Shown here: positions 2,899-24,155 of the stretch, one piece after another | How positions within the stretch are numbered: the stretch's first letter is position 1 | Layout of the letters: each line of letters opens with the position of its first letter | DNA from: a virus | Virus record (IMG/VR): IMGVR_UViG_3300008267_009933 | Location: 1-24,155 of that record | Reading direction: 5' to 3' (one strand) | Length of the DNA: 24,155 bases | Notes under the pieces: model-generated | Told to the model about the DNA's origin: nothing | What the model saw: only the letters and a program-made list of their open reading frames with translations | The model's database searches: none | Translations under genes and position numbers: made by a program

Positions 2899-4476
2899 AT
2901 GAGTGAACCGAATTTAAGACAAATAATTCAACAAGAATACATAAAGTGTGCTCAAGATCCAGCTCACTTTATGAAAAAGTATTGTTTTATTCAACACCCA
3001 CAACGAGGTAGAATCCCATTTCACCTTTACCCTTTCCAAGAGAAAGTTCTCCATTTATGGAGAGATAATCCATACTCAATTGTACTTAAATCCCGTCAGC
3101 TAGGTATTTCAACTCTAGGTGGTGGGTATGCTTTATGGTTAATGTTATTCCATAAAGACCGAAACGTGTTGTGTCTCGCAACTACTCAGGAGACAGCTAA
3201 AAACATGGTTACGAAAGTACGATTTATGTTTGATAACTTACCTTCTTGGTTAAAGATTGATTCGGTAGAAAATAACCGTTTGAGTTTAAGGTTAGCTAAT
3301 GGATCTCAGATTAAAGCAAAATCGTCAAATAGTGACGCAGCACGTTCAGAAGCAGTATCTCTTCTACTAATTGATGAGGCTGCCTTTATTGAAAACGTTG
3401 CTGAAACATGGGCATCTGCACAACAAACCCTAGCAACTGGTGGTGGTGCTATTATATTATCTACTCCTTACGGTACTGGTAACTGGTTCCACCAAACATG
3501 GGTTAGAGCAGAAAATGGTGAAAATGACTTTTTACCTATTAAATTACCTTGGTATGTTCACCCTGAACGAGATGAGGCTTGGAGAAAAAAACAAGACGAA
3601 CTTTTAGGTGACCCTAGAGCAGCAGCCCAAGAATGTGACTGTGACTTCGCATCTTCAGGTGACGTTGTATTTTATCAAGAATATCTTGAATTTTACGAAA
3701 AAACCTATATTAAAGAGCCTCTTGAAAAACGAGGGGCTGATGGTAATTTATGGGTTTGGGAACCCGCTGATTACTCTAGAAATTATATGGTTGTAGCCGA
3801 CGTAGCTAGGGGTGATGGTAAAGATTATTCAGCATTTCACGTAATTGATATTGAAACTAATACTCAAGTAGCCGAATATAGAGGTCAAATTGGTACTAAA
3901 GAATATGGTCATTTACTAGTAGGTATAGCTACAGAATATAATGAAGCGCTTTTAATTATAGAAAACGCATCTATTGGTTGGGCAACTATACAAACTGTTA
4001 TAGATCGTGGATATCCTAACCTATACTATTCAAGTAAGAGTGATTCCTCACTAACTGATTCGTATTTTGACAAATATATGGATACCTCAAAAATGGTTCC
4101 TGGATTTACTATGTCATCAAGACTTCGTCCTATGGTTATAGGTAAACTCCAAGAATATATTAGTGACAGAGGAGTTACTATCCAGTCAAAAAGATTGTTA
4201 GAAGAAATGAAAGTATTCATTTGGAAAAATGGTAGAGCAGAAGCACAGCAGGGTTATAATGATGACCTGACTATGTCATTTGCTACCGCTATGTTTATGA
4301 GAGATACTTCATTTAAATTTAGACAAAATGCTTTAGACTCATCTAGAGCAGCATTAAGTAATATAACTAAAGTTACTAACACATTTAGTGGGGTATATAA
4401 CCGCAATTCTTCTGTACCTAATCCTTATGAGCAAGAGGTAAACGGACAGAAAGAAAGTATTAGATGGTTACTCTAA
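2899..4476 (+). CDS. 17: terminase large subunit (T4 gp17-like)
   Basis: 525 aa. This is the ATP-driven DNA-packaging motor and headful nuclease, which docks on the portal of the prohead. ATPase domain: adenine/Q-motif region FHLYPFQEKV (41-50), Walker A SRQLGIST (65-72), Walker B LLLIDEAAF (155-163) with catalytic Glu160, and coupling motif STPYGTGNWF (188-197). RNase-H-like nuclease domain: VVADVARGDGKDYSAF (Asp301), LIIENASIG (Glu355) and YNDDLTMSF (Asp455/456), the acidic triad expected for gp17. Length is slightly shorter than T4 gp17 (610 aa). No small terminase gene was recognised upstream, where T4 has gene 16. Confidence 0.95.
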   Translation: MSEPNLRQIIQQEYIKCAQDPAHFMKKYCFIQHPQRGRIPFHLYPFQEKVLHLWRDNPYSIVLKSRQLGISTLGGGYALWLMLFHKDRNVLCLATTQETAKNMVTKVRFMFDNLPSWLKIDSVENNRLSLRLANGSQIKAKSSNSDAARSEAVSLLLIDEAAFIENVAETWASAQQTLATGGGAIILSTPYGTGNWFHQTWVRAENGENDFLPIKLPWYVHPERDEAWRKKQDELLGDPRAAAQECDCDFASSGDVVFYQEYLEFYEKTYIKEPLEKRGADGNLWVWEPADYSRNYMVVADVARGDGKDYSAFHVIDIETNTQVAEYRGQIGTKEYGHLLVGIATEYNEALLIIENASIGWATIQTVIDRGYPNLYYSSKSDSSLTDSYFDKYMDTSKMVPGFTMSSRLRPMVIGKLQEYISDRGVTIQSKRLLEEMKVFIWKNGRAEAQQGYNDDLTMSFATAMFMRDTSFKFRQNALDSSRAALSNITKVTNTFSGVYNRNSSVPNPYEQEVNGQKESIRWLL

Positions 4477-4501: not shown

Positions 4502-6361
4502 ATGGCTGATACTAGATTATTTAGCAGATTAAAAAGATTATTCTCTACAGACGTAGTAATTCGTAATGTAGGAGGTACTCAGCTTCAAGTAATTGATACG
4601 GACCACATTCAAACAAGTGGTGAATTCCAAACAAACGCTTTAGTAAATAGATTTAAGGGTATTTACCAAAACCCATCTTCTACTTCTCTTATGGGTGCTC
4701 AGTTCAATATGAACTATCAGTACCTAAGAACATATCTTTATAATGACTACGATGCTATGGATACTGATGCTATTGTAGCATCTGCTCTTGACATTATAGC
4801 TGATGAATGTACTCTTAAAAATGACCAAAACGAGGTACTCCAAATCAGAAGTAGTGACGAAGATATTCAAAAAATTCTTTACAACTTATTCTACGATGTA
4901 CTTAATATTGAGTTTAACCTTTGGTCTTGGACTCGCCAAATGTGTAAGTATGGTGATTTCTTCCTTAAACTAGAAATATCAGAAAAATTTGGTGTATACA
5001 ACGTTATTCCTTACACAGCATATCACATTGAACGTAAAGAAAATTTTGATCCCGAAAATCCATCTAAAGTAATCTTTAACTATAGCCCTGATGGTTTCTA
5101 TGGTGGTGGATCTTCTGGTTACTACTATACTCCTAATTCTCAAACTAATAGTAATGTACTTACATTTGATAATTACGAGATAGCTCACTTTAGATTACTA
5201 GCAGACCTAAACTTCTTACCTTATGGTCGTTCATATCTAGAACCAGCTCGTCGTCTTTACAAGCAATATGTGTTGATGGAAGACGCGATGCTTATCCATA
5301 GAATTGTTCGCGCCCCAGAAAAACGTATTTTCTACGTTAACGTAGGTTCTATTCCACCTAATGAAGTAGAAAACTTTATGCAGAAAACCATTTCGACCAT
5401 GAAACGTACTCCGTTTATGGATCCTCAAAATGGTGAATACAACTTAAAATACAATATGCAGAATATCCTTGAGGATTTCTACATCCCAGTAAGAGGTAAT
5501 GATGCTGCTACTCGTATTGATACTACTAAAGGTTTAGAATACGCTGCTATTGAAGACGTAGCTTACTTAAGAGATAAACTATTTGCCGCCCTTAAAGTAC
5601 CTAAAGCATTTATGGGTTACGATAAAGATTTAAGTGGTAAAGCAACATTAGCCGCTGAAGATATTCGTTTTGGTAGAACCATTGATAGAATCCAACGTAT
5701 TCTTCTTTCAGAACTTTATAAAATTGCTCTAGTTCACCTATATGCTCAAGGATATGATGGTGAATCATTAGGAAATTTTGAGCTTTCATTAACTACTCCT
5801 TCTATCATTTACGATCAAGAACGTATCGCTTTGATGAAAGAAAAAGTAGAATTAGCAAATCAAATCTTAGAATCTAAATTGCTCCCAACTGATTGGATTT
5901 ATCATAACATATTCCACTTAAGCGAAGACCAATACGATGAATACAGAGATTTAGTTATTCAAGACCAAAAACGTTCCTTTAGAACTACCCAAATCGCTGA
6001 GGAAGGCAATGACCCAGTTGAAACAGGACGTTCATATGGTACGCCACATGATCTAGCATCATTGTATGGTAGAGGTAGATATGAAGAAAATTCAGTACCT
6101 GATAATTACGATGAGAAAGTTCCATTAGGTCGCCCACAAGAAAAAGCTTCTAATATCAATACTCAAAACAATGCATTTGGTAGAGATAGATTAGGAAGAA
6201 AAGATAATAAAGTGGACGATCAACCTGGTCCAGGTATCGCTGAAGCTAAAAGTGCTTCAAATACTAAACGTTCTTTGATGGAATCTTTACAAAAAGAATT
6301 AGTGTTTGCTTCGGATAAACGTAAGGAATCACTATTAGATGAATCAAGAATCAAAGAGTAA
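4502..6361 (+). CDS. 20: portal vertex protein (T4 gp20-like)
   Basis: 619 aa. The portal forms the dodecameric ring at the unique head vertex through which DNA enters, and it nucleates prohead assembly. Family features: the N-terminal third with YNDYDAMDTDAIVASALDI (residues about 79-97), the clip/stem region WSWTRQMCKYGDFFLKLEI, the conserved PYGRSYLEPARRLYKQY, RAPEKRIFYVNVG and the C-terminal segment KVPKAFMGYDKDLSGKATLA, all typical of gp20-type portals. The C-terminal ~100 residues are hydrophilic and probably flexible. It lies directly after the terminase; T4 places tail sheath and tube genes between them. Confidence 0.93.
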   Translation: MADTRLFSRLKRLFSTDVVIRNVGGTQLQVIDTDHIQTSGEFQTNALVNRFKGIYQNPSSTSLMGAQFNMNYQYLRTYLYNDYDAMDTDAIVASALDIIADECTLKNDQNEVLQIRSSDEDIQKILYNLFYDVLNIEFNLWSWTRQMCKYGDFFLKLEISEKFGVYNVIPYTAYHIERKENFDPENPSKVIFNYSPDGFYGGGSSGYYYTPNSQTNSNVLTFDNYEIAHFRLLADLNFLPYGRSYLEPARRLYKQYVLMEDAMLIHRIVRAPEKRIFYVNVGSIPPNEVENFMQKTISTMKRTPFMDPQNGEYNLKYNMQNILEDFYIPVRGNDAATRIDTTKGLEYAAIEDVAYLRDKLFAALKVPKAFMGYDKDLSGKATLAAEDIRFGRTIDRIQRILLSELYKIALVHLYAQGYDGESLGNFELSLTTPSIIYDQERIALMKEKVELANQILESKLLPTDWIYHNIFHLSEDQYDEYRDLVIQDQKRSFRTTQIAEEGNDPVETGRSYGTPHDLASLYGRGRYEENSVPDNYDEKVPLGRPQEKASNINTQNNAFGRDRLGRKDNKVDDQPGPGIAEAKSASNTKRSLMESLQKELVFASDKRKESLLDESRIKE

Positions 6362-6395: not shown

Positions 6396-7262
6396 ATGAA
6401 CATTAAACATTCAAAGTACAAAAATACTGGTATCCTTTTTGAGTTGTTGGTACGCCAAGTAACTGCCGATACTCTCAATGGGAAAAATTCCCCTGCTATT
6501 AAACTTATCCAATCTTATTTTGTTAAAAGCGAATTAGGTAAAGAATACAAGCTTTACGAAACTTTGGTTAAGAATACTTCATTAAATGAAGGTAAAGCTA
6601 ATGTTGTATTAAGTACTTTATTAGAAACTTCTAAAAAATTAAATCGTAAATCTCTTAAGAGACAAAAATATAATTTAATTAACGAAATTAAAAAACATTA
6701 CGATTTAAACGAGTTCTTTACTGCAAAACTTCCTAATTATAAGATTTACGCAGCTTTATATACATTAACCGAAATTGAAAATCTTAATGAGATAGTAGAT
6801 ACGGTTCAAATTATAAATAATAAAGTTACTCTTTTAGAGCATTTGTGTAAAACTCCAATTACAGAAGAAAAAGTTGAAGCAGACGTTTTAAAAGAATTCC
6901 AGTCTTACGACAAAGATACTCGTATGCTTACCTATAGAATTTTAATGGAAAAATTTAATGGCAAATATAGTGATCTTTACCCTAGCCAAAAAGAAATTCT
7001 TAGAGAATACATTAACTCAGTAGATTCAACCCCAGTATTAAGAGAATTTTATAATTCTAAAATTCAAGAAGTAAAAAGCGAATTAGTTACTCTTAATAAT
7101 ACTATTTCAGATAAAACTGTCCAGATTAAAGTGAATGAGGTATTAAATTTACTTCATGAATTAGATAAAACATCTAAAGTTACAAGTGAAAACATTGTAA
7201 ACATTCTTCAATATTACGAACTTTTAGAAGAATTAAAATCTGCACATGGACAAGTTAACTGA
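6396..7262 (+). CDS. hypothetical head-region protein, 288 aa
   Basis: Not assigned to a named family, though the opening KYKNTGILFELLVRQVTADTL recalls conserved unknown proteins next to portal genes in T4-like phages of aquatic bacteria. It is predicted to be almost wholly alpha-helical and lysine-rich, without signal peptide or membrane segment. The C-terminus is strongly helical (QYYELLEELKSAHG). It occupies the slot between portal and protease where T4 has the prohead-core genes 67 and 68, so a prohead-core or portal-associated role is a positional inference. It overlaps the next gene by 17 bp. Confidence 0.75.
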   Translation: MNIKHSKYKNTGILFELLVRQVTADTLNGKNSPAIKLIQSYFVKSELGKEYKLYETLVKNTSLNEGKANVVLSTLLETSKKLNRKSLKRQKYNLINEIKKHYDLNEFFTAKLPNYKIYAALYTLTEIENLNEIVDTVQIINNKVTLLEHLCKTPITEEKVEADVLKEFQSYDKDTRMLTYRILMEKFNGKYSDLYPSQKEILREYINSVDSTPVLREFYNSKIQEVKSELVTLNNTISDKTVQIKVNEVLNLLHELDKTSKVTSENIVNILQYYELLEELKSAHGQVN

Positions 7263-7860
7263 TAAAATTAAAGAAGTAGCTAGAGGACGTAAATTCATTC
7301 TTAAACCTACCCCAGGTGGTGAAGAAGAATTTGAATCAGACGTAGTGTACGTTCCTGATTTTGAAGTTCTTTTAAAGGATATTAACCGTGCTTTAGATAC
7401 ACTTAGAACCATTGCTACAGATCCTGAAATAATCAGTGATCCTAAATTTGGTGAAATCTATAATCAATTTAGACTTCTAAGAAATACTCTTAGAACTCAT
7501 ATGAGAAAAAACTACCCTACCGAATATCAAAAAATTAAGGGTATGTTTGAAATCTCAGCTGTTAGTGGTGGTACCGCCACTTTTAATCCTGGTACTGGAG
7601 CCAATTACGCGGTACCTGCGGCCTTTAACCCTAATAAAAAAGATAAGGGTACAAAACACAAATATTACTACAAACTAGGAATGAAACCAGTTACCGAAAC
7701 TGATCCAGGAGCCACATTAGGTCCTGGTCCTAAAGCTGGTCCTAAAGGAGTAAAAAATAACTATTATGTTAAAAACTTTGGATACAAAGAAGTTAACCCA
7801 GTTAAATTAGCAGCTAAATCTAAAGCTATTGATACTAATTACCTCTGGGGAAAACCTTAA
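7246..7860 (+). CDS. hypothetical structural protein with capsid-like GGTATF-PGTG motif, 204 aa
   Basis: The N-terminal ~100 residues are helical (VLLKDINRALDTLRTIATD, YNQFRLLRNTLRTHMRKNY). Residues 100-122 hold MFEISAVSGGTATFNPGTG followed by ANYA, which aligns without gaps with the processing region of the major capsid protein in this window (Glu61 onward). The C-terminal half is Gly/Lys/Tyr-rich with two related strands, KHKYYYKLGMKPV and KNNYYVKNFGYKEV. The alignment suggests cleavage after Glu102 by the gp21-like protease, so the protein is probably an internal head or prohead-core component. The start at 7246 lies inside the upstream gene; no alternative start gives the conserved N-terminus. 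Confidence 0.75.
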   Translation: MDKLTDKIKEVARGRKFILKPTPGGEEEFESDVVYVPDFEVLLKDINRALDTLRTIATDPEIISDPKFGEIYNQFRLLRNTLRTHMRKNYPTEYQKIKGMFEISAVSGGTATFNPGTGANYAVPAAFNPNKKDKGTKHKYYYKLGMKPVTETDPGATLGPGPKAGPKGVKNNYYVKNFGYKEVNPVKLAAKSKAIDTNYLWGKP

Positions 7861-7871
7861 TATTTATTGTT

Positions 7872-8129
7872 ATGGGATATAGATATAAGCTAAAACAAAG
7901 TCTTAAAGAAGCTGATCCAAAACGTGCAGCTTTTCAACAAGAGCGTATTAAAGCTTTTGATGAAGTTACTGCTCAATTAAATAGGCTTTACCCTATGATT
8001 AGCAATGCTAAAGACGAAACTATAACCTATTACAACGAAAACCCAGGTTCATACGCAGTAGTGTATGGAACTGATTTGATTAAAAAAAGTTTAGACGATA
8101 TAGAAACTTTATTAAACCCCGATAAATAA
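7872..8129 (+). CDS. small hypothetical protein, 85 aa
   Basis: Unrecognised. The N-terminus is basic (MGYRYKLKQSLKEADPKR), followed by a helix (FDEVTAQLNRLYPMISNAKDETITYY) and a short acidic C-terminus (KKSLDDIETLLNPDK). There is no membrane segment. A TATTTATTG sequence at 7861-7869, a weak version of the repeated box, fills the gap before it. Its stop overlaps the next start (TAATG at 8127-8131). Its position in the head cluster suggests a small prohead-core protein, comparable in size to T4 gp67, but there is no sequence proof. Confidence 0.65.
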   Translation: MGYRYKLKQSLKEADPKRAAFQQERIKAFDEVTAQLNRLYPMISNAKDETITYYNENPGSYAVVYGTDLIKKSLDDIETLLNPDK

Positions 8130-9169
8130 TGAAAACCCTACAAGAACAATACAATTTACTAAAAGAAGGTAAGGGTCATAAGGATATGTTTATGAAATCA
8201 GCTCGTAGACTATTTCCAAATTACATTAGCAATGTAACACCATACGAGACAACTGTAACTATTTTAAAACAAAAGCAAATCCTATCTGAGGGTACTATCA
8301 CTAGTGGTAAAGTAGTAACAGTTGATCCATTTGCTAAGTTTAATAGTTTTTTAGGTGAAGCTAAAGCTGAAGAAAAAAAGCCTACAAAAGAAGTAACTGA
8401 CATGGAAACTAGAGGTTACGACTATAAAAACCCAAGAATGATTGATAACGTTTACGGTGAAGAATTTTTAGAAGGCTACTACGCTGAAATGAAAGATCCT
8501 AAAAACGTTGATAAGACTGTAGACGAATTAAAAGAAATCGTAGCTAAAAATTTAGCTAAAGATATTACTTACTACACAACTAACCAAGCTTTTGGTATTA
8601 AGGGAATAGGTTATTCAACTGAACATCCTGGTTTAGGTACTCCTAAAGAAGCCAAGGGCAAATACAAAGCCAGTGGTTATGGTGATTTACCTAAATCAAC
8701 AGTAAAAGAAAACATGATTAAATTAACAGATCTTCTTTCAGAAAACTATAATTACGAATTTAAGGAAGCAGAAGACCAAGAAGAAAAGTATGTCGGAGGT
8801 GACGAAAGATACGAATACGAAAAAGGTGAAAAAGCTGAAAAGAAAAAACTTCAAAAAGAAGTAGATTTAGCTACACGTGTTAAAGAAATTGAAGAAGCAG
8901 GTAATATTGCTGCTTTAGAAGCTAAAATGAATGCTGTTGATGAAGAAATCATGGCTAGAGAAGGTAAATTAAACATGGTAAAGGAAAATGAAGCCCTTGC
9001 TGAGTTTATTAACCCATCTCGTATTAAAGAAATTGAAAGAGAAATTAAAGAATTAGAAAAAGTTAAAGGTAAATACGAAAAGATTTACGAAAAAATGACT
9101 AATTCTAAGAAGAAAGAAGTAGTAGACGAGACAGCGATTGATGAAATGTCTCAAGATATCGAAATCTAA
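8129..9169 (+). CDS. hypothetical coiled-coil head-region protein, 346 aa
   Basis: Not a named family. The N-terminal ~55 residues (KEGKGHKDMFMKSARRLFPNYI) form a distinct basic segment that I associate with unknown head-cluster proteins of aquatic T4-like phages. The middle (about 95-190) is mixed, with Gly/Tyr-rich stretches (YTTNQAFGIKGIGYSTEHPG). The C-terminal part (about 215-330) is a long Glu/Lys-rich coiled coil (EIEREIKELEKVKGKYEKIY). Prohead-core proteins are often helical and charged, and it sits directly before the protease, so a core/scaffold role is likely but inferred. Confidence 0.75.
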   Translation: MKTLQEQYNLLKEGKGHKDMFMKSARRLFPNYISNVTPYETTVTILKQKQILSEGTITSGKVVTVDPFAKFNSFLGEAKAEEKKPTKEVTDMETRGYDYKNPRMIDNVYGEEFLEGYYAEMKDPKNVDKTVDELKEIVAKNLAKDITYYTTNQAFGIKGIGYSTEHPGLGTPKEAKGKYKASGYGDLPKSTVKENMIKLTDLLSENYNYEFKEAEDQEEKYVGGDERYEYEKGEKAEKKKLQKEVDLATRVKEIEEAGNIAALEAKMNAVDEEIMAREGKLNMVKENEALAEFINPSRIKEIEREIKELEKVKGKYEKIYEKMTNSKKKEVVDETAIDEMSQDIEI

Positions 9170-9170
9170 T

Positions 9171-9776
9171 ATGAAACAAGTACTAGTAGAAACCCAACTC
9201 TTCAAGGTTAATCCTGTTCAATTAACTGAAGGCTCTAAGTCTTTAGCAGGTAATCCTATTGTTGAGGGTATCTTAGCTACAGCTGAAGTTAAGAATGGTA
9301 ATGGTAGATACTATGCTAAAGAGTTATGGGAAAGAGAAATCGATAAATACATGGATATTGTTAAGGAAAACCGAGCAACCGGTGAACTTGACCACCCAGA
9401 TTCTTCTATTATCAATTTAAAAAATGTTTGCCATATTATTAGAGATATGTGGTGGGATGGAGATCACGTGGTAGGTAAAATAGAAATTCTACCTACAGCA
9501 TCTGGTAACATTCTTAAAGCACTTATTGATAATAACGTTCAAGTGGGTGTTTCTTCACGTGGAATGGGTTCTCTTAAATCAAGAGGAGACATCATGGAAG
9601 TACAAGACGACTTTGAATTGCTTTGTTGGGACTTCGTTTCAACTCCTTCTAACCCAGGCTCATATATGCACTTAGTAAGAGAAGGTAAAGAAAATAATAT
9701 TATCAATCCTTATAATAGAGTAAATTCGATTGTAACCGAAATTTTGTGTGCAAACGGGACTTGCCCTATAATATAA
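9171..9776 (+). CDS. 21: prohead core protein/maturation protease (T4 gp21-like, peptidase S77)
   Basis: 201 aa when started at ATG 9171, two bases after the upstream stop. An in-frame ATG at 9138 would add 11 residues overlapping the previous gene and is less likely, because MKQVLVETQ gives a normal gp21-like N-terminus. The catalytic His is His75 in GELDHPDS and the catalytic Ser is in QVGVSSRGMGS (Ser128 or 129), followed by the conserved WDFVSTPSNPGS. Such proteases cut prohead proteins after Glu in (L/I/V)-x-Glu sites and then digest themselves. Likely targets here are the capsid protein, the scaffold and the 204-aa head protein. The gene is followed directly by a strong terminator. Confidence 0.92.
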   Translation: MKQVLVETQLFKVNPVQLTEGSKSLAGNPIVEGILATAEVKNGNGRYYAKELWEREIDKYMDIVKENRATGELDHPDSSIINLKNVCHIIRDMWWDGDHVVGKIEILPTASGNILKALIDNNVQVGVSSRGMGSLKSRGDIMEVQDDFELLCWDFVSTPSNPGSYMHLVREGKENNIINPYNRVNSIVTEILCANGTCPII

Positions 9777-9967: not shown

Positions 9968-11227
9968 ATGGCAAACAGAGACTTGCTTAAAGAAGCAATC
10001 GCTGACGCAAAAGCACTTAAAGAAACTGCTATTGCAAATGCTAAAGCCGCACTCGAGGAAGCATTTAATCCTCAACTTCAAGCCATGTTCGCTAAGAAAT
10101 TAGAAGAAATGGAAGTTGAAGAAGAAGAATTAGATGAAAGACAAAAGTACGGTGGCAACAAAGGCGATGTTCCTGCTTCTAAACGTGGTGATAAAAAAGA
10201 CACTGCCGAAGAAGAAGGAGTAGAAGACTACAAGAAGAAAGTCAAGGAGGGAGATGATATCAATCTTACCCGTTTCCCAGACGAACCAGGCGAGCACGGT
10301 AACGTAGCTGGCAAAAACGTTGATGAAATGGATCTTGAAGAGCTTCTTGCCGAACTTAATGAAGAAGAGGATTCTAAAGAAATGGAAGAAAGCCTAAACG
10401 AAGCTGAAGAAGAAGAGGAAATGGAAATTGACTCTGAAGAAGAAAGCGAAGAAGAAGGTGGAGAGGAAGAGGAAATCGACCTTGAAGAAATGACTGAAGA
10501 TGAATTAAAAATGTTCATTGAGGACGTGATCAAAGACATGGTTAGCACTGGCGAATTAGAAGCTGGAGAGGAATTTGAAGCTGAGGAAGACATGGAAGAC
10601 ATGGAAGGCGAAGACGAAGAAGAACTCGACATCGAAGATGAAACAGAAGAAATCATGGAAGGTGAAGAAGAAAAAATGGAAGAAAACGTATTAGATAAAC
10701 TCAAAGCAGTTTACAACGACCCAGAAGTACTTGGTAAACTTATTACAGTAGATGGTAAAAAGATGTCCCTTAAGGATTTCTTAGCTATGGCCGCTTCAGG
10801 CGCTACTGGTGGTATGAAAAAATCAGGATCTGGTAAAACTTCTTCTGTAGGCGAAGCTGAAGACAAAATGGATGAAGCTTATGATGAGATGGAAGAAATG
10901 AAGGACAAGCTTGATGAATTGAAAGCTGAACTTCACGAAGTTAATCTCCTTAACGCTAAACTTCTTTACACCAACAAAATCTTTAGAGCTAAAAACTTAG
11001 TAGAATCACAAAAAGTTAAAGTATTAGAAGCATTCGATAAGGCTGCTACTGTAAGCGAAGTAAAACTCGTATACGAAACTTTAAGTGAGGGTATTAAAGA
11101 AAAAGCTCCTATTAAAGAAAACCTTAGCCGCGCTTCAAAACCAGCAGGCGTAGCACCAAAACAGCAAATTGTTGAAGTTGATTCACAAGTTGCTAGATGG
11201 CAAAAATTAGCTGGTATTATTAAATAA
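9968..11227 (+). CDS. 22: prohead core scaffolding protein (T4 gp22-like)
   Basis: 419 aa, extremely acidic. The N-terminus (DLLKEAIADAKALKETAIAN) is an alanine-rich helix like that of gp22-type scaffolds. Residues about 115-235 are dominated by Glu/Asp runs. A helical region near 300-330 (DEAYDEMEEMKDKLDELKAEL) is coiled coil. The C-terminus ends with VARWQKLAGIIK, a short conserved-looking tail that may contact the capsid protein. The scaffold forms the core around which capsid protein assembles and is normally degraded by the gp21-type protease. Its place between protease and capsid gene matches T4 order 21-22-23. It is longer than T4 gp22 (269 aa), mainly because of the acidic region. Confidence 0.85.
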   Translation: MANRDLLKEAIADAKALKETAIANAKAALEEAFNPQLQAMFAKKLEEMEVEEEELDERQKYGGNKGDVPASKRGDKKDTAEEEGVEDYKKKVKEGDDINLTRFPDEPGEHGNVAGKNVDEMDLEELLAELNEEEDSKEMEESLNEAEEEEEMEIDSEEESEEEGGEEEEIDLEEMTEDELKMFIEDVIKDMVSTGELEAGEEFEAEEDMEDMEGEDEEELDIEDETEEIMEGEEEKMEENVLDKLKAVYNDPEVLGKLITVDGKKMSLKDFLAMAASGATGGMKKSGSGKTSSVGEAEDKMDEAYDEMEEMKDKLDELKAELHEVNLLNAKLLYTNKIFRAKNLVESQKVKVLEAFDKAATVSEVKLVYETLSEGIKEKAPIKENLSRASKPAGVAPKQQIVEVDSQVARWQKLAGIIK

Positions 11228-11246: not shown

Positions 11247-12905
11247 ATGTCACAAATTCAATCTCTTTTAGAGTCTGCTGGTCAAGGTTGGAAAAACATG
11301 CAGTCAGACGCGGCTAAATTAGCTGCTAAGTGGGAGAAGACAGGTTTACTTGAAGGCCTTAAGTCTGAGGTCGAGAAGAACAACATGTCTTTAATTCTTG
11401 AGAACCAAGCTAAGCAATTAGTTGTTGAGACTTCTCAAATAGATGGTGGTACTGCTTCATTCACTCCAGGTACTGGTAACAACTGGGCAGGAATCGCTCT
11501 TCCATTGGTTCGTAAGGTATTTGGTCAAATCGCTGCTAAAGAATTCGTTTCTGTACAGCCGATGAACTTACCTTCAGGTCTTGTATTCTACTTAGATTTC
11601 CAATACGGTTCAACTAAGGATAACATCGTTGGTTCAAACCCTAACCAATATGTTGCTGGTCAATCAGTATACGGTCAACAGAATAGCACTCAGTACCCAT
11701 TCGCAACTACTAACACTTCTGGTGGTTTCTACGGTCCTGGTAGATTTGCTTACTCTATCTTTACTCAAAGTGACGAGTCTGTAACCTTTACTGCTGCTTC
11801 AGCTTCTTGGAAGGACGTAGGCTTTGATTCTGATCTTTCAGCTTCTGCAGCTGCTGGTCAAATCATCAAAATCTCTATCGCTAGTGGTGCTTTACCAGTT
11901 CCATCTACTCCAGACGGTAACGGTACAATGACAGTTGACTTAGAAGCAGTTAGAGGTTTCTCTTTCATGATTTCTGGAACAACTGACGTAGTTAACCAGG
12001 TTAACGCCTACAACACTAATACTTCAACTGGTGGAGTTGAAATGTACGTTTCATCTTCAGCTGGTAATATCGCAAGTGGTGCTGACGGATTGTTATTCTA
12101 CTTTGCTCAACCAACTCAAAACAACGCTGGTGACTTCGAAAACACAGCTGCTATTCCTGAGATCAACATTCAAATGAGATCACTTGCTATTGTAGCTAAA
12201 ACTCGTAAGTTAAAGGCTGTTTGGACACCTGAATTCGCTCAAGACTTGAATGCTTACCAAGCTCTTGACGCTGAAGCCGAGGTTACAAACATCATGTCTG
12301 AGCACATTTCATTGGAAATCGATTCTGAAATCCTTGCGATGTTGATCCAAGACGCTTCAGCTGGTACTGAGTACTGGTCAGCTAACAACAACATTGTTTA
12401 CAATGGTACAACAATGACAGCTTCTTCATCTGGTTTCTTCAACACTCAAGGCCAATGGTTCCAAACTCTTGGTACTAAGATGCAGAAACTTTCTAACAGA
12501 ATCCACCAGTTAACTCTTCGTGGAGGTGCTAACTTCTTAGTATGTTCTCCAACTGTAGCAACTATCCTCGAGTCAATCCCAGGATTCGCTGCTAACACAG
12601 ATGGTGATGCTTCTAAGATGGAATACGCATTCGGTATCCAGAAAGCAGGTCAATTGAACAACCGTTACACTGTATACAAAAACCCTTACATGGTTGAAAA
12701 TACCATCCTTATGGGTTACAGAGGTTCTCAATTCCTTGAGACTGGTGCTGTATTCGCTCCATACATTCCGTTGATCATGACTCCATTGATCTACGATCCA
12801 GAAACATTCGTACCTAGAAAAGGCTTAATGACTCGCTACGCGAAGAAGATGTTACGCCCTGAGTACTACGGTAAGATCTACGTATCTGGTTTGAACTCTC
12901 TTTAA
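11247..12905 (+). CDS. 23: major capsid protein (T4 gp23-like)
   Basis: 552 aa. Near the N-terminus, SLILENQAKQL (48-58) matches the position and pattern of T4 gp23 IFENQ. It is followed by LVVE-TSQIDGG, where Glu61 corresponds to the gp21 cleavage site of gp23; the mature chain would be about 491 aa. The conserved SVQPMNLPSGLVFYLDFQYG (102-121) parallels gp23's VQPMNSPTG segment. The C-terminal part has VYKNPYMVENTILMGYRG and YDPETFVPRKGLMTRYAKK, typical of gp23-type HK97-fold shell proteins. Codons here are more uniform than in neighbours, as expected for high expression. Two hairpins follow immediately. Confidence 0.95.
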   Translation: MSQIQSLLESAGQGWKNMQSDAAKLAAKWEKTGLLEGLKSEVEKNNMSLILENQAKQLVVETSQIDGGTASFTPGTGNNWAGIALPLVRKVFGQIAAKEFVSVQPMNLPSGLVFYLDFQYGSTKDNIVGSNPNQYVAGQSVYGQQNSTQYPFATTNTSGGFYGPGRFAYSIFTQSDESVTFTAASASWKDVGFDSDLSASAAAGQIIKISIASGALPVPSTPDGNGTMTVDLEAVRGFSFMISGTTDVVNQVNAYNTNTSTGGVEMYVSSSAGNIASGADGLLFYFAQPTQNNAGDFENTAAIPEINIQMRSLAIVAKTRKLKAVWTPEFAQDLNAYQALDAEAEVTNIMSEHISLEIDSEILAMLIQDASAGTEYWSANNNIVYNGTTMTASSSGFFNTQGQWFQTLGTKMQKLSNRIHQLTLRGGANFLVCSPTVATILESIPGFAANTDGDASKMEYAFGIQKAGQLNNRYTVYKNPYMVENTILMGYRGSQFLETGAVFAPYIPLIMTPLIYDPETFVPRKGLMTRYAKKMLRPEYYGKIYVSGLNSL

Positions 12906-16908: not shown

Positions 16909-18297
16909 GTGGCTCAATTTAATATTACCTCTACTGCAACCTCAGGTATATCTGCTCCAGATCCTGGAGTAGTTGCTATTTTCTCTAATGAAGCCGATGG
17001 TGGAAAATTATACTACAGATTTTCAGATGGATCATTTGCCCCTGTAGATACAGGAGGCACTTCAGGTGGTGGTTCAGGTTCATCAGGTACCTCAGGAACC
17101 GCAGGTTCAGGTACTGCAGGCACTTCAGGTACAGCGGGAGCTAATGGCTCCTCAGGTACTTCAGGTGCTAATGGTTCATCAGGTACATCAGGTACAGCAG
17201 GTGAAGATGGCACTTCAGGAACTAATGGTGTTTCAGGCTCATCAGGTACTTCAGGAACAGGCTCAGGACAATCTGGTACAGATGGTACTTCAGGTACTCA
17301 AGGTTTATCAGGTACTTCAGGCACTTCAGGAGCAAATGGTACTTCAGGAACAAATGGTGCTACTGGTACTTCAGGCACTTCAGGAGCTAATGGTACTTCA
17401 GGTACAGCAGGTGTAGCAGGCTCTTCGGGTACTTCAGGTACAGCAGGTGCTGCTGGCACTTCAGGCACTTCAGGAGCAAATGGTACTTCAGGAACAGATG
17501 GTTCAAGTGGTTCATCAGGAACTTCAGGTACAGCAGGCGCTACAGGAGCAGCTGGTACTTCAGGTACTGACGGTACAACTACAATTGTAGGTACTTCAGG
17601 TACAGGCGGTAATTCAGGTACTTCAGGTACAGATGGTATTTCAGGCACAACTGGTACTTCAGGTTCTTCAGGTTCATCAGGAACTTCAGGTTCATCTGGA
17701 ACTTCAGGTACTTTAGGTACAGATGGTACTTCAGGATCATCAGGTACAAGTGGAGTAGGTACATCAGGTACTTCAGGTGCTACTGGTACTTCAGGTACTG
17801 GTGGTTCAGGTACAAATGGAACAAGTGGTTCTTCAGGTGCAACTGGTACTTCAGGTACTTCGGGTGCTGGTGGAGGTGCTGTAGGAGTTCCTGCTATGTA
17901 TACTTTCTTTGTTAATATTAACAGTGGTGCTATTGATACCGCTAATCCAGTAGCATCTGCCGCAGGTCCTAATAACGAAAGCTTTGCAACTTTACAATCT
18001 GCAGGTTGGAGTGTTTCAGCAACAGCTTCTACAGTAACTTTTACAAGAGGAACTTCATTAAGAAATGCTTATCCTGCAGTTAACCCTATGTCGCATGGTA
18101 TTAATGGATCTAATGTATTAGCTCGCCACCCATACCAAACAACAACTATTACAACTACAGTTTTTGAAACTATAGATGGTAGTAATAATTTCCAAACTCT
18201 AACATTCTATAACCTCACCCAGGCTCAGGCTGGTTATCCTTCAGGAACAGGTGTTTTCTTAATACTTAAATTTGCTCTTTACACTCCAGGAGCTTAA
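16909..18297 (+). CDS. collagen-like fibre protein, 462 aa (GTG start)
   Basis: Residues 1-48 form an N-terminal domain ([37 protein letters not shown]) that probably attaches to the virion. Residues about 49-324 are Gly-X-Y repeats dominated by GTSGTSG, with GSS, GAN, GTN and GTA variants and some interruptions such as GTGSGQSG; I see no Pro, Lys or Arg. Residues 325-462 are a globular, beta-rich C-terminal domain ([24 protein letters not shown]). Collagen-like phage proteins are typically trimeric fibres or decoration proteins. GTG is chosen because the only nearby ATG (16870) reads into a stop after seven codons. A terminator follows. Confidence 0.85.
17056..17877 (+). repeat. Gly-X-Y (GTSGTSG) coding repeat in first fibre gene
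   Basis: A short-period coding repeat with 9-bp units variably spelled (ggtacttca, ggaacttca, ggttcatca), giving Gly at nearly every third residue. Units are not identical at DNA level. Confidence 0.9.
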
Positions 18298-18440: not shown

Positions 18441-21400
18441 ATGTCAGCTAATCCAGTTACCCCACCTAAAGTAATACCAGGTTCTATTAATTTTGGTAGT
18501 ACTTCTATTGCTGTTACTTATGATAACCCTAGCAGCATTTACGATGGGTTCCCTTATATATTTTCAGCTAGTGTAACCGTAATCCCAGAGTTTACATCTG
18601 ATCCTAATAGTTCACCAAACCCACTCCAATGGGATGCTAATAATATTAATACAAACATGTATTATGGCCTTCCTTCAGGCCAATTGTATAAAGTTATTGG
18701 TGTTAGTGTTGTATCATCAACAAGTGCTAGTATTGTTATAGAAGATCAAGATCTTTTTGTTTTAAATATAGCTCCTAGCCAGGATGGTAATAATGCTCCT
18801 GTAGAAAACCAATTAGGTTTTTTCTTTGAATTAGATGAAGAAGGTCAACCAATTTTAGCAGGCATTTCTAATATTGCCTCAGGATTTGGTATAAATAGTT
18901 ATTGGATTGATGATATCCAAGGTCGTTTTAGGGCCCGTGACTATAGACAAAAATACTTTGCTATAGATAATTTATCTGCAGCTTATACAAACATCCAAAC
19001 CGGATCTTTTGTTTACCTAAGTAGCTCAGGAGAGTTTTATACTGCAAGTACGGGTAATGACTTCGAAAGATTATTTGGTATAGTTCAAGAAAAAGATACA
19101 CCTGAAACCGGAAACATGTATGTTCGACCTATTGCAAAAATAGTCGAAAACTTACCTGTTCTTCCAGGTACAAGAGGTGAAGTTCTTTATTTTACAAGCT
19201 CAGCAGCTACTAATTTCTTAACTAATACTAAACCTGAGATAAATCCTTATCCAGTTTATATTAAAGTTACAGAAAATTCTGCTATTTTATTACCAAACCA
19301 TCCCTCTAATTTAGCACTTCAACCAAATATATATTATACTGGTTCTCTTGTAAGAGGAGATGTTGACAATATTAACTTTACAGGCTCAGGAGTTGTAGTA
19401 ACTGCTTCAGGATCTGATGGAGTATTAGTTACTATTACTGGCGGAGGTGGAGGTACAGGCACTTCAGGAACTTCAGGTGAAGATGGAACATCCGGCACTT
19501 CAATCGTAGGTACATCCGGTACTTCAGGTGCCGGAACTTCTGGCACTTCAAGCGTAGGTACATCGGGTACTTCAGGTGATGTCGGAACGAGTGGAACATC
19601 AGGAGCAGTTGGTACTTCCGGTACAAGTGGTGTAAATGGTACAAACGGTACTTCAGGAAATTCAGGTACAGACGGTACATCTGGAGATGGAACATCCGGT
19701 ACTTCAGGAGAAGGTACAAGCGGTACCTCAGGAGATGGAACTTCAGGAACTTCAGGTATTGGAACCTCTGGTACTTCAGGTGCTGGAACTTCTGGTACCT
19801 CAGGTGCTGGTACTTCAGGCACTTCAGGAGCAGATGGTACAGACGGTACCTCAGGAATTTCAGGTACAGACGGTACTTCAGGAGATGGCACTTCAGGTAC
19901 TTCAGGAGCAGGCACTTCTGGAACTTCAGGCGAAGACGGGACATCAGGAACTTCAGGTGAAGCAGGTACAAGCGGTACCTCAGGTGCTGGTACTTCAGGC
20001 ACAAGCGGAGCAGAAGGTACTTCTGGTACTGATGGTACAAGCGGTGAAGATGGTACTTCAGGCACTTCTGGTGCTGGAACTTCAGGTACTTCAGGTGTTG
20101 GAACTTCAGGTACAAGCGGAGTTGAAGGTACTTCAGGTACAGACGGTGTAGATGGTACTTCAGGCACTTCAGGTGCTGGAACTTCAGGCACAAGTGGAGC
20201 AGAAGGTACTTCAGGTACTGATGGTACTTCAGGAATTTCTGGTACAGATGGCACTTCAGGCGAAGACGGAACATCAGGTACTTCAGGCGATGGCACTTCA
20301 GGAACAAGCGGAATTAATGGTACCTCTGGTACAGACGGTTTAGATGGCACTTCAGGTACTTCTGGCGAAGGTACTTCTGGTACTTCAGGTATAGATGGTA
20401 CAGACGGCACCTCAGGAATTTCTGGTACAGATGGCACTTCAGGCGAAGATGGTACTTCTGGAACTTCAGGAGATGGTACTTCAGGCACTTCAGGTATTAA
20501 TGGAACTTCAGGTACAGACGGTGCAGATGGTACTTCTGGAACTTCAGGTGAAGACGGAACATCTGGTACTTCAGGTGCCGGAACTTCAGGTACTTCAGGC
20601 GTAGATGGTACAGACGGTACTTCTGGAATTAGCGGTACAGACGGTACTTCAGGTGAAGACGGTACAAGCGGTACTTCTGGAGATGGTACTTCTGGAACTT
20701 CGGGCATTGACGGTACAGATGGTACTTCAGGAATTAGTGGTACAAATGGTACCTCAGGAATTAATGGTACAGATGGTACTTCTGGTGTAAATGGTACAAA
20801 CGGTACTTCAGGAATCTCAGGTACAGATGGCACCTCAGGCGAAAACGGTACAAGTGGTACTTCAGGAGACGGCACTTCAGGAACAAGTGGAATTAATGGT
20901 ACCGATGGTACTTCTGGAGAAGACGGAACTTCGGGTACAAGTGGAATTAATGGTACCGATGGCACTTCAGGTATAGACGGAACAAACGGTACTTCAGGTT
21001 CATCAGGAACTAGCGGAACATCCGCTGTAATTTGTACCCCACTCTTAGCGGGGGATTATTACTTCCAAGCAGTAGGGGCAACATACAATGGGCCTTCTTA
21101 TGCAGGTATGGCTTGGGGAGCTGGGCAAACTTTAAGTGTATATGCACCCGAGGGTGTTATACAATATATGTTAGTAACCTCTTATGATCCTTCTACGGGT
21201 GCTTTAGTTGCAGTTATTACATTTTGCTCAAGTGTTAATTTTAAAACAGTTATTGGTGTTACGCTTTGCCTTGTAGGAGAACAAGGTACTTCAGGAACAT
21301 CAGGAAATGGTACCTCTGGCATTTCAGGCACAGACGGTACTTCAGGAATCTCTGGTACAAACGGTACAAGCGGTATAAATGGTACAGATGGTACTTCAGG

Positions 21401-24155
21401 CGAAAACGGTACTTCAGGTACGAGTGGTGTAAATGGTACAAACGGTACTTCAGGAAACTCTGGTACAGACGGCACTTCTGGAATTGATGGTACAGACGGT
21501 ACCTCAGGTGTTTCAGGTACAGACGGTACTTCAGGAGTTTCAGGCACAAACGGTACAAGCGGTATAAATGGTACAAACGGTACTTCAGGCGAAGATGGAA
21601 CTTCAGGTACAAGTGGAGTAGATGGTACAGATGGTACTTCAGGTATTTCAGGTACAGACGGTACTTCAGGTATAGATGGCACCGATGGTACTTCAGGTAC
21701 AAATGGAACTTCTGGAGTTTCAGGTACAAACGGTACAAGCGGTATAGACGGAACAAACGGTACTTCAGGTATAGATGGTACTGATGGAACTTCAGGCATA
21801 AATGGTACAGACGGTACTTCAGGAAATTCCGGTACAGACGGTACCTCAGGTGTTTCAGGTACAAACGGTACTTCAGGAAATTCAGGTACAGACGGTACTT
21901 CAGGTATTTCAGGAACTGACGGTACAAGCGGTATAGACGGTACAGACGGTACTTCAGGTATAGACGGTACAGATGGTACTTCTGGAATTTCTGGTACTGA
22001 CGGTACTTCAGGAATTAGTGGTACTAATGGTACTTCTGGAGTTTCCGGTACAGATGGTACTTCAGGAGTCTCTGGTACTAATGGTACAAGTGGTATAAAC
22101 GGAACAAACGGCACTTCAGGTGAAGACGGTACTTCAGGAACTTCAGGTATAGATGGTACTGATGGAACTTCTGGAATTTCTGGTACTGACGGTACTTCAG
22201 GTATAGATGGTACTAATGGTACCTCAGGTACAAACGGTTCAAATGGTACTTCAGGTATCTCAGGTACAGACGGTACAAGTGGTATAGATGGAACAAACGG
22301 TACTTCAGGCGAAGACGGTACTTCAGGAACTTCAGGTGCTGATGGTACAGACGGCACTTCAGGAATTAGTGGTACGGATGGAACTTCTGGAATTTCAGGT
22401 ACTGACGGTACAAGTGGTATAGACGGTACAGATGGTACTTCAGGTATCTCTGGTACAGACGGTACAAGCGGTATAAACGGTACAAACGGTACTTCAGGTA
22501 CAAATGGTTCAAACGGAACTTCTGGTACTTCAGGTATAGACGGTACCGATGGTACTTCAGGTATTTCAGGCACAGATGGTACTTCAGGCACAAACGGTTC
22601 AGATGGTACTTCAGGTACTGATGGTACATCTGGTATAGACGGAACAAATGGTACTTCAGGTACAAGTGGTTCAAACGGAACTTCTGGTACTTCAGGTATA
22701 GACGGTACAGACGGCACTTCAGGTATTTCAGGCACAGACGGTACAAGCGGTATAGATGGTACAAACGGTACTTCTGGCACAAATGGTTCAAACGGTACCT
22801 CAGGTATCTCAGGTACTGATGGCACTTCAGGAATTGATGGAACCGATGGTACCTCAGGCACAGATGGTTCAAACGGAACCTCTGGTACTTCAGGAATAGA
22901 CGGTACAGACGGTACTTCAGGTATTTCGGGTACAGACGGTTCATCAGGCACATCAGGAAGTTCAGGTACAACAGGTACAAACGGTTCATCCGGCACTTCA
23001 GGTTCTTCTGGTACAACTGGTACAGATGGTTCAAGCGGAACTTCAGGTTCTTCAGGTACAACTGGTACAGATGGTACCTCAGGAATTAGCGGTACAGACG
23101 GTTCAAGTGGTACTTCAGGTACTGATGGTTCAAGTGGTACAACAGGTACAGATGGTTCAAGCGGCACTTCAGGAAGTTCAGGTACAACAGGTACAGACGG
23201 TTCTTCTGGTACAAGTGGCTCTTCAGGTACAACGGGTACAGACGGTACAAGTGGTGTAGATGGTTCATCAGGAACTTCAGGATCTTCAGGTACTACTGGT
23301 ACAGACGGTTCAAGCGGTACTTCAGGCTCATCTGGTACTACAGGTACAGATGGTTCTTCTGGTACAACTGGTACAGACGGTTCATCTGGTACTTCAGGCT
23401 CATCTGGTACTACAGGTACAGATGGTACAAGTGGTATAGATGGTTCATCAGGAACAAGTGGTTCTTCAGGTACTACTGGTACAGACGGTTCTTCTGGTAC
23501 AAATGGTACAGACGGTTCAAGCGGAACTTCAGGCTCATCTGGTACTACAGGTACAGACGGTTCAAGCGGAACTTCAGGAACCTCAGGTTCATCAGGTACA
23601 TCAGGTTCATCAGGAACTTCAGGATCTTCAGGCACAACTGGTACAAATGGTTCATCAGGTACTTCAGGAACCGCAGGTTCTTCAGGAACTAGCGGACAAG
23701 ATGCATTATCAGGTGGTGTTAATTTATTCTTTAATGCTTCAGTTAATAGTGATATCTCGGGTGATGTAGAGTTAGGTCAATTAACAACAACGGCTCCCGA
23801 ATATACTGATGTTGTAACACTTACTGCTAACCAACAAAATGTTCAGGTAAATTCATCATTTGTTACAGTAGCTGATTATCCAGGGGTTACAGTAATACCA
23901 AATGGTATATGGCACGCATATTTGTATTTTACTAAAAATACTCAGAACGATAACGTATCATCATATTTTACAGTATCTAAAGTAAACTCTACAGGTGGAG
24001 GTAAAACATTATTATTTACATCAGATGATGTACAAATAGGTTGGGATACTAATAATACAACTCCTGTTGAAACTAAAATGAATGCTATCGTAACATCGGC
24101 AGCATTACTTATTACAGATAGAATTGTAATTGACATATACGTAAATAACGGTGAT
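18441..24155 (+). CDS. giant collagen-like fibre protein, N-terminal 1905 codons (no stop in window)
   Basis: The frame from ATG 18441 stays open to the last base, so the gene runs off the window and the protein exceeds 1900 aa. Layout: residues 1-333 non-repetitive beta-rich N-terminal region ([47 protein letters not shown]); about 334-856 Gly-X-Y block 1 with frequent one-residue interruptions; about 857-947 a non-repetitive island with three Cys; about 948-1752 Gly-X-Y block 2, essentially uninterrupted; then a beta-rich domain ([20 protein letters not shown]) continuing past the window. I see no Pro, Lys or Arg in the repeats, so they are acidic. It is probably a long trimeric tail fibre or head fibre; adsorption is the likely role but is inferred. 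Antisense and shifted frames look open only because of the repeat composition. Confidence 0.88.
19440..21011 (+). repeat. collagen-like block 1 (interrupted Gly-X-Y)
   Basis: Encodes repeats such as [24 protein letters not shown] and [10 protein letters not shown]. About twenty Gly-X-Gly interruptions (GAG, GDG, GEG, GIG, GVG) break the three-residue period. Ser and Gly codons vary freely. Confidence 0.88.
21309..23696 (+). repeat. collagen-like block 2 (uninterrupted Gly-X-Y, ~265 triplets)
   Basis: From 21309 to 23696 Gly falls at every third residue without a break. The 5' two thirds use [16 protein letters not shown]-type triplets. The 3' third changes to GSS/GTT-rich triplets. Confidence 0.9.
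22945..23670 (+). repeat. higher-order ~45-bp repeat at 3' end of block 2
   Basis: A 15-residue supra-unit, [15 protein letters not shown], recurs several times with small variations, on top of the three-residue period. At DNA level the copies are more alike (ggttcttcaggtacaactgg-type) than elsewhere, suggesting recent tandem duplication. Confidence 0.65.

Follow-up and report, generated by a model that had tools for sequence, protein, structure and literature searches.

The window analysed here is a viral contig of 24,155 bases with a T4-like head cluster. In the window as well as in its relatives, the gene order is portal, o288, o204, o85, o346, gp21, gp22 and gp23. The following features were located, with a slash marking cut sites here and below.

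2899-4476: terminase
4502-6361, plus strand: portal protein, gp20 family (Pfam Portal_T4, 3e-68)
6396-7262: o288, portal-proximal
7246-7860, plus strand: o204, gene of a 204-aa head protein; its start overlaps the end of o288, with o288 on one side and the gp21 protease gene on the other
7246-7551, plus strand: N-terminal region of o204 (residues 1-102), a proposed core-targeting propeptide; its final KGMFE is invariant in the family alignment
7549-7551, plus strand: codon of o204 Glu102, the proposed P1 of a gp21-type cut (MF-E/I); invariant in the family alignment
7552-7611, plus strand: N-fist-like peptide of o204, ISAVSGGTATFNPGTGANYA (residues 103-122)
7567-7611, plus strand: GGTATFNPGTGANYA of o204 (residues 108-122)
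7606-7626, plus strand: YAVPAAF of o204 (residues 121-127), corresponding to the family signature Y-A-T-P-x-A-F
7627-7857, plus strand: basic C-terminal tail of o204
8129-9169: o346, a neighbouring core protein
9138-9776, plus strand: gp21-type prohead protease (Pfam Peptidase_S77, 1.1e-28; PHROG 207, 5e-58)
9968-11227, plus strand: acidic gp22-like scaffold of 419 aa, assigned by position and composition
11247-12905, plus strand: major capsid protein of 552 aa, gp23 family (Pfam Gp23, 1.3e-75; PHROG 138, 6e-71)
11427-11429, plus strand: codon of capsid Glu61, equivalent of the cut-site residue Glu65 of T4 gp23 (T4 alignment); invariant in 29 capsids
11430-11483, plus strand: stretch of the capsid protein (residues 62-79) that occupies the position of the T4 N-fist (66-91)
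11445-11489, plus strand: GGTASFTPGTGNNWA of the capsid protein (residues 67-81)

The start codon of the protease is likely to lie further inside its open reading frame, at MKQVLVE, and the scaffold showed no strong family match in PHROGs or Pfam.

No homologue of o204 was found in PHROGs (E ≤ 1), Pfam or the INPHARED phages. Relatives at the same gene position were present in 33 IMG/VR contigs, and a profile of the C-terminal half reached 408 stretches. The family keeps its place between portal/o288 on one side and o346/gp21 on the other. The sequence before the Glu is about 15 to 200 residues long, and the second half of the protein consists of [LM]xE, a Gly/Ser/Thr-rich tail, Y-A-T-P-x-A-F and a basic stretch. 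Among isolates, the capsid is closest to those of Flavobacterium phage immuto (53% identity) and Microcystis phage Mel-JY01 (48%). Both phages have a small gene in the head cluster that encodes a shortened tail form. In immuto this protein is gp072, which reads MSTTGAVGGYLTK from the proposed cut, and the openly accessible paper on Flavobacterium phages of the Baltic contained no virion proteomics of this phage.

Residues 102-122 of o204 align without gaps with capsid residues 61-81, and 10 of the 15 motif residues are identical. The original observation that the spacing from Glu to peptide is identical and gap-free in the two proteins was exact (Glu102 and 108-122; Glu61 and 67-81). The two 15-mers score 62 (BLOSUM62), whereas 60 shuffles of o204 gave 39 at most, a comparison to be read with the Gly/Ser/Thr-rich composition of the peptide, which raises background similarity. 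No third copy scoring above 26 was present in the six frames of the window, and when the whole record was searched with o204, the capsid protein was the only second match (E = 1.1e-4). Glu-to-Phe spacing was equal in small protein and capsid in 11/11 cases in the clade of the window and 13/13 in another; perfect co-change of this spacing was ruled out by L010 and L015, with 9 in the small protein and 13 in the capsid. The likeness ends at the N-fist/N-arm boundary, and the same holds in the T4 phage group. Residues 103-204 of o204 are predicted to be disordered and contain 16 K/R versus 5 D/E, while a helix is predicted from about 39 to 101 (AlphaFold2 pLDDT about 70-78 for 41-100). The AlphaFold2 models of o204 and capsid, made with 18 and 29 sequences, were poor, with a pLDDT of 49-50.

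For the predicted cut site, 92 distinct family sequences were examined ahead of their YATPxAF signature. The Glu ahead of the peptide was present in all of them (92/92) and, within the interval where the site was expected, a residue of the [LIVMF] group stood two positions before it in 89, versus 40% for [LIVMF]-x-Glu in control windows, which confirms the hydrophobic-x-Glu pattern claimed for this place. At P3, Leu was found in 51 and Met in 17 of the 92, and the site of o204 itself, MFE, has Met. T4 gp21 sites mostly carry Ile or Leu at P3, and the o204-family site follows the same logic as LTE/A in gp23 and IAE/A in the internal proteins (IPs). On the capsid side, all 29 sequences share Glu61, Trp80, Ala81 and Gly82, and alignment with T4 gave Glu65 as the equivalent of Glu61, so the correspondence with the gp23 cleavage position held. 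As for the proposed cutting of both proteins by a gp21-like protease, a conserved gp21-type Glu site and an adjoining gp21-family protease gene were found, and these point to o204 being cut after Glu102 by this type of enzyme. The peptide, originally taken as the protease-processing element itself, did not keep this role, since the shared stretch corresponds to the first residues after the cut.

When compared using phmmer, capsid Trp80 aligned with residue 26 of mature T4 gp23*, which places the shared segment at the position of the T4 N-fist, residues 66-91 of gp23 (PMC7136217). The T4 N-fist contacts four subunits of two capsomers and helps to form the Soc site, and it is disordered in the five portal-facing subunits (PMC9958956, PMC7136217). 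Within the prohead, the T4 N-terminal regions are disordered; they move outward on expansion and become N-fists (PMC9958956). The likeness to gp23 covers both the position right after the predicted gp21 cut and the end at the N-arm boundary, but the T4 N-fist belongs to the capsid subunit, whereas the o204 copy is on a separate small protein. No N-fist mimic was detected in cyanophages S-PM2 and P-SSM2, and the mimic is not universal.

Covariation of the small protein with the capsid of its own genome was evaluated in 61 genome pairs by comparing the tails, defined as the sequence after the capsid Glu and after the small-protein Glu. Tail similarity was 0.42 within genomes and 0.27 between genomes (permutation p < 5e-5). 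This excess persisted with 42, 26 and 8 capsid clusters, with a partial Mantel r of 0.43 given capsid-body identity and p < 2e-4 for permutation within clusters of 60-70% identical capsids. In L097, for example, the capsid has TE/TNTIATNSSFTSGTEGENWAG and the small protein EE/INTIGSNSSFTSGTEGENYATPFAF. A profile built from small-protein tails only and run on 12 long records recovered both the small protein and the N-fist of its own capsid in five of them (112-168 kb), with none of the 12 records giving a third hit at E ≤ 10. The motif, which might have been common in unrelated proteins, was thus confined to two places per genome. The covariation is imperfect: the small proteins of L174, L254, L256, L298, L307 and the immuto type have a shortened tail without F-x-P-G-x-G, and several capsids of those phages retain this motif (e.g., L174, L254 and L298). 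In Straboviridae, own and foreign pairs were indistinguishable (0.408 vs. 0.402, p = 0.27), since the N-fist hardly varies in this group and covariation is undetectable. Cross-group similarity was about 0, the small-protein tails resembling only the N-fist of their own group.

With the gp23 N-fist region as query, one other place was found in T4, gene 61.1 (NC_000866, 18966-19130; E = 2.7e-4), with a product of 54 aa whose function is not annotated. The T4 N-fist also matched residues 116-138 of gp21 (shuffle p of about 0.005 among six proteins), but this was discarded as a probable chance hit. Over 37 residues spanning the cut site, gp61.1 and gp23 57-93 align without gaps, with a score of 82 compared with 42 or less in 2000 shuffles. 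The alignment pairs QAFGSFLTE/AEIGGDHGYNATNIAAGQTSGAVTQIGP in gp23 with KTFKEFIKE/DMVAGDSGGNPENISIGTTSGAVVNKGP in gp61.1, which from Asp11, after the predicted Glu10 cut, reads DMVAGDSGGNPENISIGTTSGAVVNK. The gp61.1 family profile matched gp23 at E = 1.9e-7 over 40 columns from the cut site on. The protein starts with MKTFKEFIKE; two internal proteins of T4, encoded at 65.7 and 66.4 kb, start with MKTYQEFIAE and are alone in T4, besides gp61.1, in matching the pattern MKTxxEFI. The capsid targeting sequence (CTS) is the first 10 residues of IPIII (PMC9026906). From its sequence, T4 gp61.1 resembles an internal head protein that carries a CTS, similar to that of IPII/IPIII, and a copy of the N-fist.

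Relatives of gp61.1 were found in 1440 phage records. Some are labelled 'major capsid protein' and one is noted as 'T4 gp23-like'; the N-fist copy accounts for the first of these labels on several short gp61.1 proteins in public records. In the open literature searched, gp61.1 came up in two gene tables only, and its N-fist copy is apparently undescribed so far. Longer relatives have a domain of about 100 aa ahead of the Glu, as in o204. The gp61.1 family (PHROG 1823 and 2086) shares with o204 a putative targeting N-terminus (short CTS or ~100-aa domain), the hydrophobic-x-Glu site, a copy of the N-fist of its own family and a basic tail. The gp61.1 gene adjoins that of primase gp61, whereas the o204 gene lies between portal and protease, and the peptide of gp61.1 is unlike that of o204 because the T4 N-fist differs. 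Homology between the N-terminal domains was not supported (hhalign probability of 0.2%), and judged by these comparisons o204 is an analogue, not a member, of the gp61.1 family. In T4 gp67 and gp68, whose genes hold the same position as o204, from gp20 to gp21, no N-fist-like sequence was found with the T4 N-fist as query.

The o204 protein has the marks of core and internal proteins, namely head genes and a gp21-type protease gene alongside and a hydrophobic-x-Glu site, and that of an N-fist mimic, a sequence after the predicted cut that matches the N-fist of its own capsid. Building on the mimic, its genome-specific covariation, the conserved Glu site, the place in the head gene cluster and the same architecture in gp61.1, we consider with a probability of about 0.55 that o204 is a gp21-processed core or internal head protein, the mature form of which imitates the N-fist at its N-terminus and docks in sockets of the shell. 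Its N-terminal ~100 residues would recruit it to the prohead core, where the gp21-type protease would cut o204 after Glu102 and the capsid protein after Glu61. The new N-terminus of o204 would then imitate the capsid N-fist, the first ~20 mature residues, which lock adjacent capsomers together as the shell expands. With its tail, basic and predicted to be disordered, the mature fragment would be present in the virion, most likely docked via the mimic into N-fist sockets of the shell. Candidate sockets would be donor-less ones at the portal vertex and, in T4, the gp24 vertices or gp24-facing positions; with docking, the T4 socket occupant would fit ENISIGTTSGAV rather than TNIAAGQTSGAV. It had been suggested that the unknown protein mimics the capsid in order to bind scaffold or portal. 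The mimicry is supported by the covariation with the own capsid, but not the partner: since the N-fist is a shell-to-shell contact (PMC9958956, PMC7136217), the capsid lattice is a likelier one, and capsid imitation is probably how this minor head protein would dock in the shell.

It is also conceivable, with clearly lower odds, that the mimic is a temporary occupant or timer in the unexpanded prohead, placed in the N-fist sockets or at the scaffold interface and displaced on expansion by the capsid N-fists. The transition of the T4 N-terminal regions from disorder in the prohead to N-fists upon expansion (PMC9958956) would suit this role, as would the position of o204 within the core gene cluster. 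However, N-fist contacts arise with expansion, as reviewed in PMC9958956, and freeing the N-terminus of the peptide needs cleavage, which precedes expansion.

The assignment of the shared peptide as a gp21 docking sequence on substrates, with no later role, appears improbable. In both proteins the peptide immediately follows the predicted cut, tracking the Glu wherever it is placed, and covariation with the protease of the same genome would also be expected, but the T4 substrates do not follow this pattern. T4 core proteins undergo gp21 processing (PMC9958956). IPII and IPIII have a CTS and a gp21 cut at IAE-10, are basic and are packaged in the head, and after the cut they continue with ARVGAGKL and ASVVKAKG, nothing N-fist-like; gp24 continues with STTTNSNS after its cut at residue 10. 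As IPII, IPIII and gp24 show, gp21 cuts T4 substrates that lack an N-fist-like sequence, so that recognition by the protease is by itself an improbable explanation for the peptide. In addition, only one non-capsid protein per whole genome has the motif, although substrates are expected among several core proteins.

A capsid-gene fragment captured by a head protein and either homogenised by recombination or left as a functionless remnant would also give high local similarity within one genome, but this origin is very unlikely. At the shared residues, codons were identical in 48% of cases, where codon usage would lead one to expect 55%, and in many cases the shared serines draw on different codon families. 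As synonymous codons do not match, the constraint is at the protein level and not due to recent gene copying, and gene conversion was ruled out on the same data. Moreover, the peptide is kept in hundreds of contigs, and its other form in 1440 phage records. Finally, a chance or low-complexity likeness of two Gly/Ser/Thr-rich linkers, a simple composition common in the phage of the window (collagen-like tail proteins), is hardly credible, as own-genome similarity exceeds that of foreign pairs of equal composition, only two places per genome carry the sequence and T4 provides an independent case with a different one.

Extending the docking of o204 to other phages is more tentative, and it would be somewhat surprising if it held in full: T4-type phages may widely encode an 'N-fist plug', a small protein that, once processed by the prohead protease, would fill vacant sockets (portal vertex, pentamer-facing sites) of the expanded shell with its new N-terminus, where its imitation of the capsid would seal or mark special vertices. 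If so, T4 gp61.1 would offer the first chance to test a protein of this kind in a model phage. With the mimicry, a function open to testing can be proposed for a large family of head proteins that lack annotation, and for gp61.1 of T4, the most thoroughly studied large phage. Docking of the mimic would amount to a way of making special capsid sites without a second capsid gene. A single gp23-like gene, the sole capsid gene, was found in 11 of the 12 long relative records (E ≤ 1), those behind L027, L067, L074, L104, L144, L162, L168, L246, L250, L036 and L037, and no gp24 vertex paralogue was detected in 11/12 (E ≤ 1).

One contig of 268,739 bases, represented by L314 (its positions 225,000-240,000) and L269, carries two distinct T4-like head modules and two capsid genes; it could be a chimeric assembly or a two-module phage. 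In the second module, the capsid has INE/AASTTDSGSF and the protein at L314:13255 ISE/ITGTGGSGSF, with equal Glu-to-Phe spacing again. The Mel-JY01 head cluster contains a gene annotated as ribosomal protein S21 (L037:9188-9415), and a similar small ORF precedes the scaffold gene in an uncultured jumbo phage (L039:9726-9998). In the window itself, o346 contains ILSE/GTITSGK, which resembles a further possible gp21-type site. At 16909-18297 and 18441-24155 the window encodes collagen-like proteins of great length with GTSGTSG repeats, which probably serve as tail fibres or decoration; the second runs past the end of the contig.
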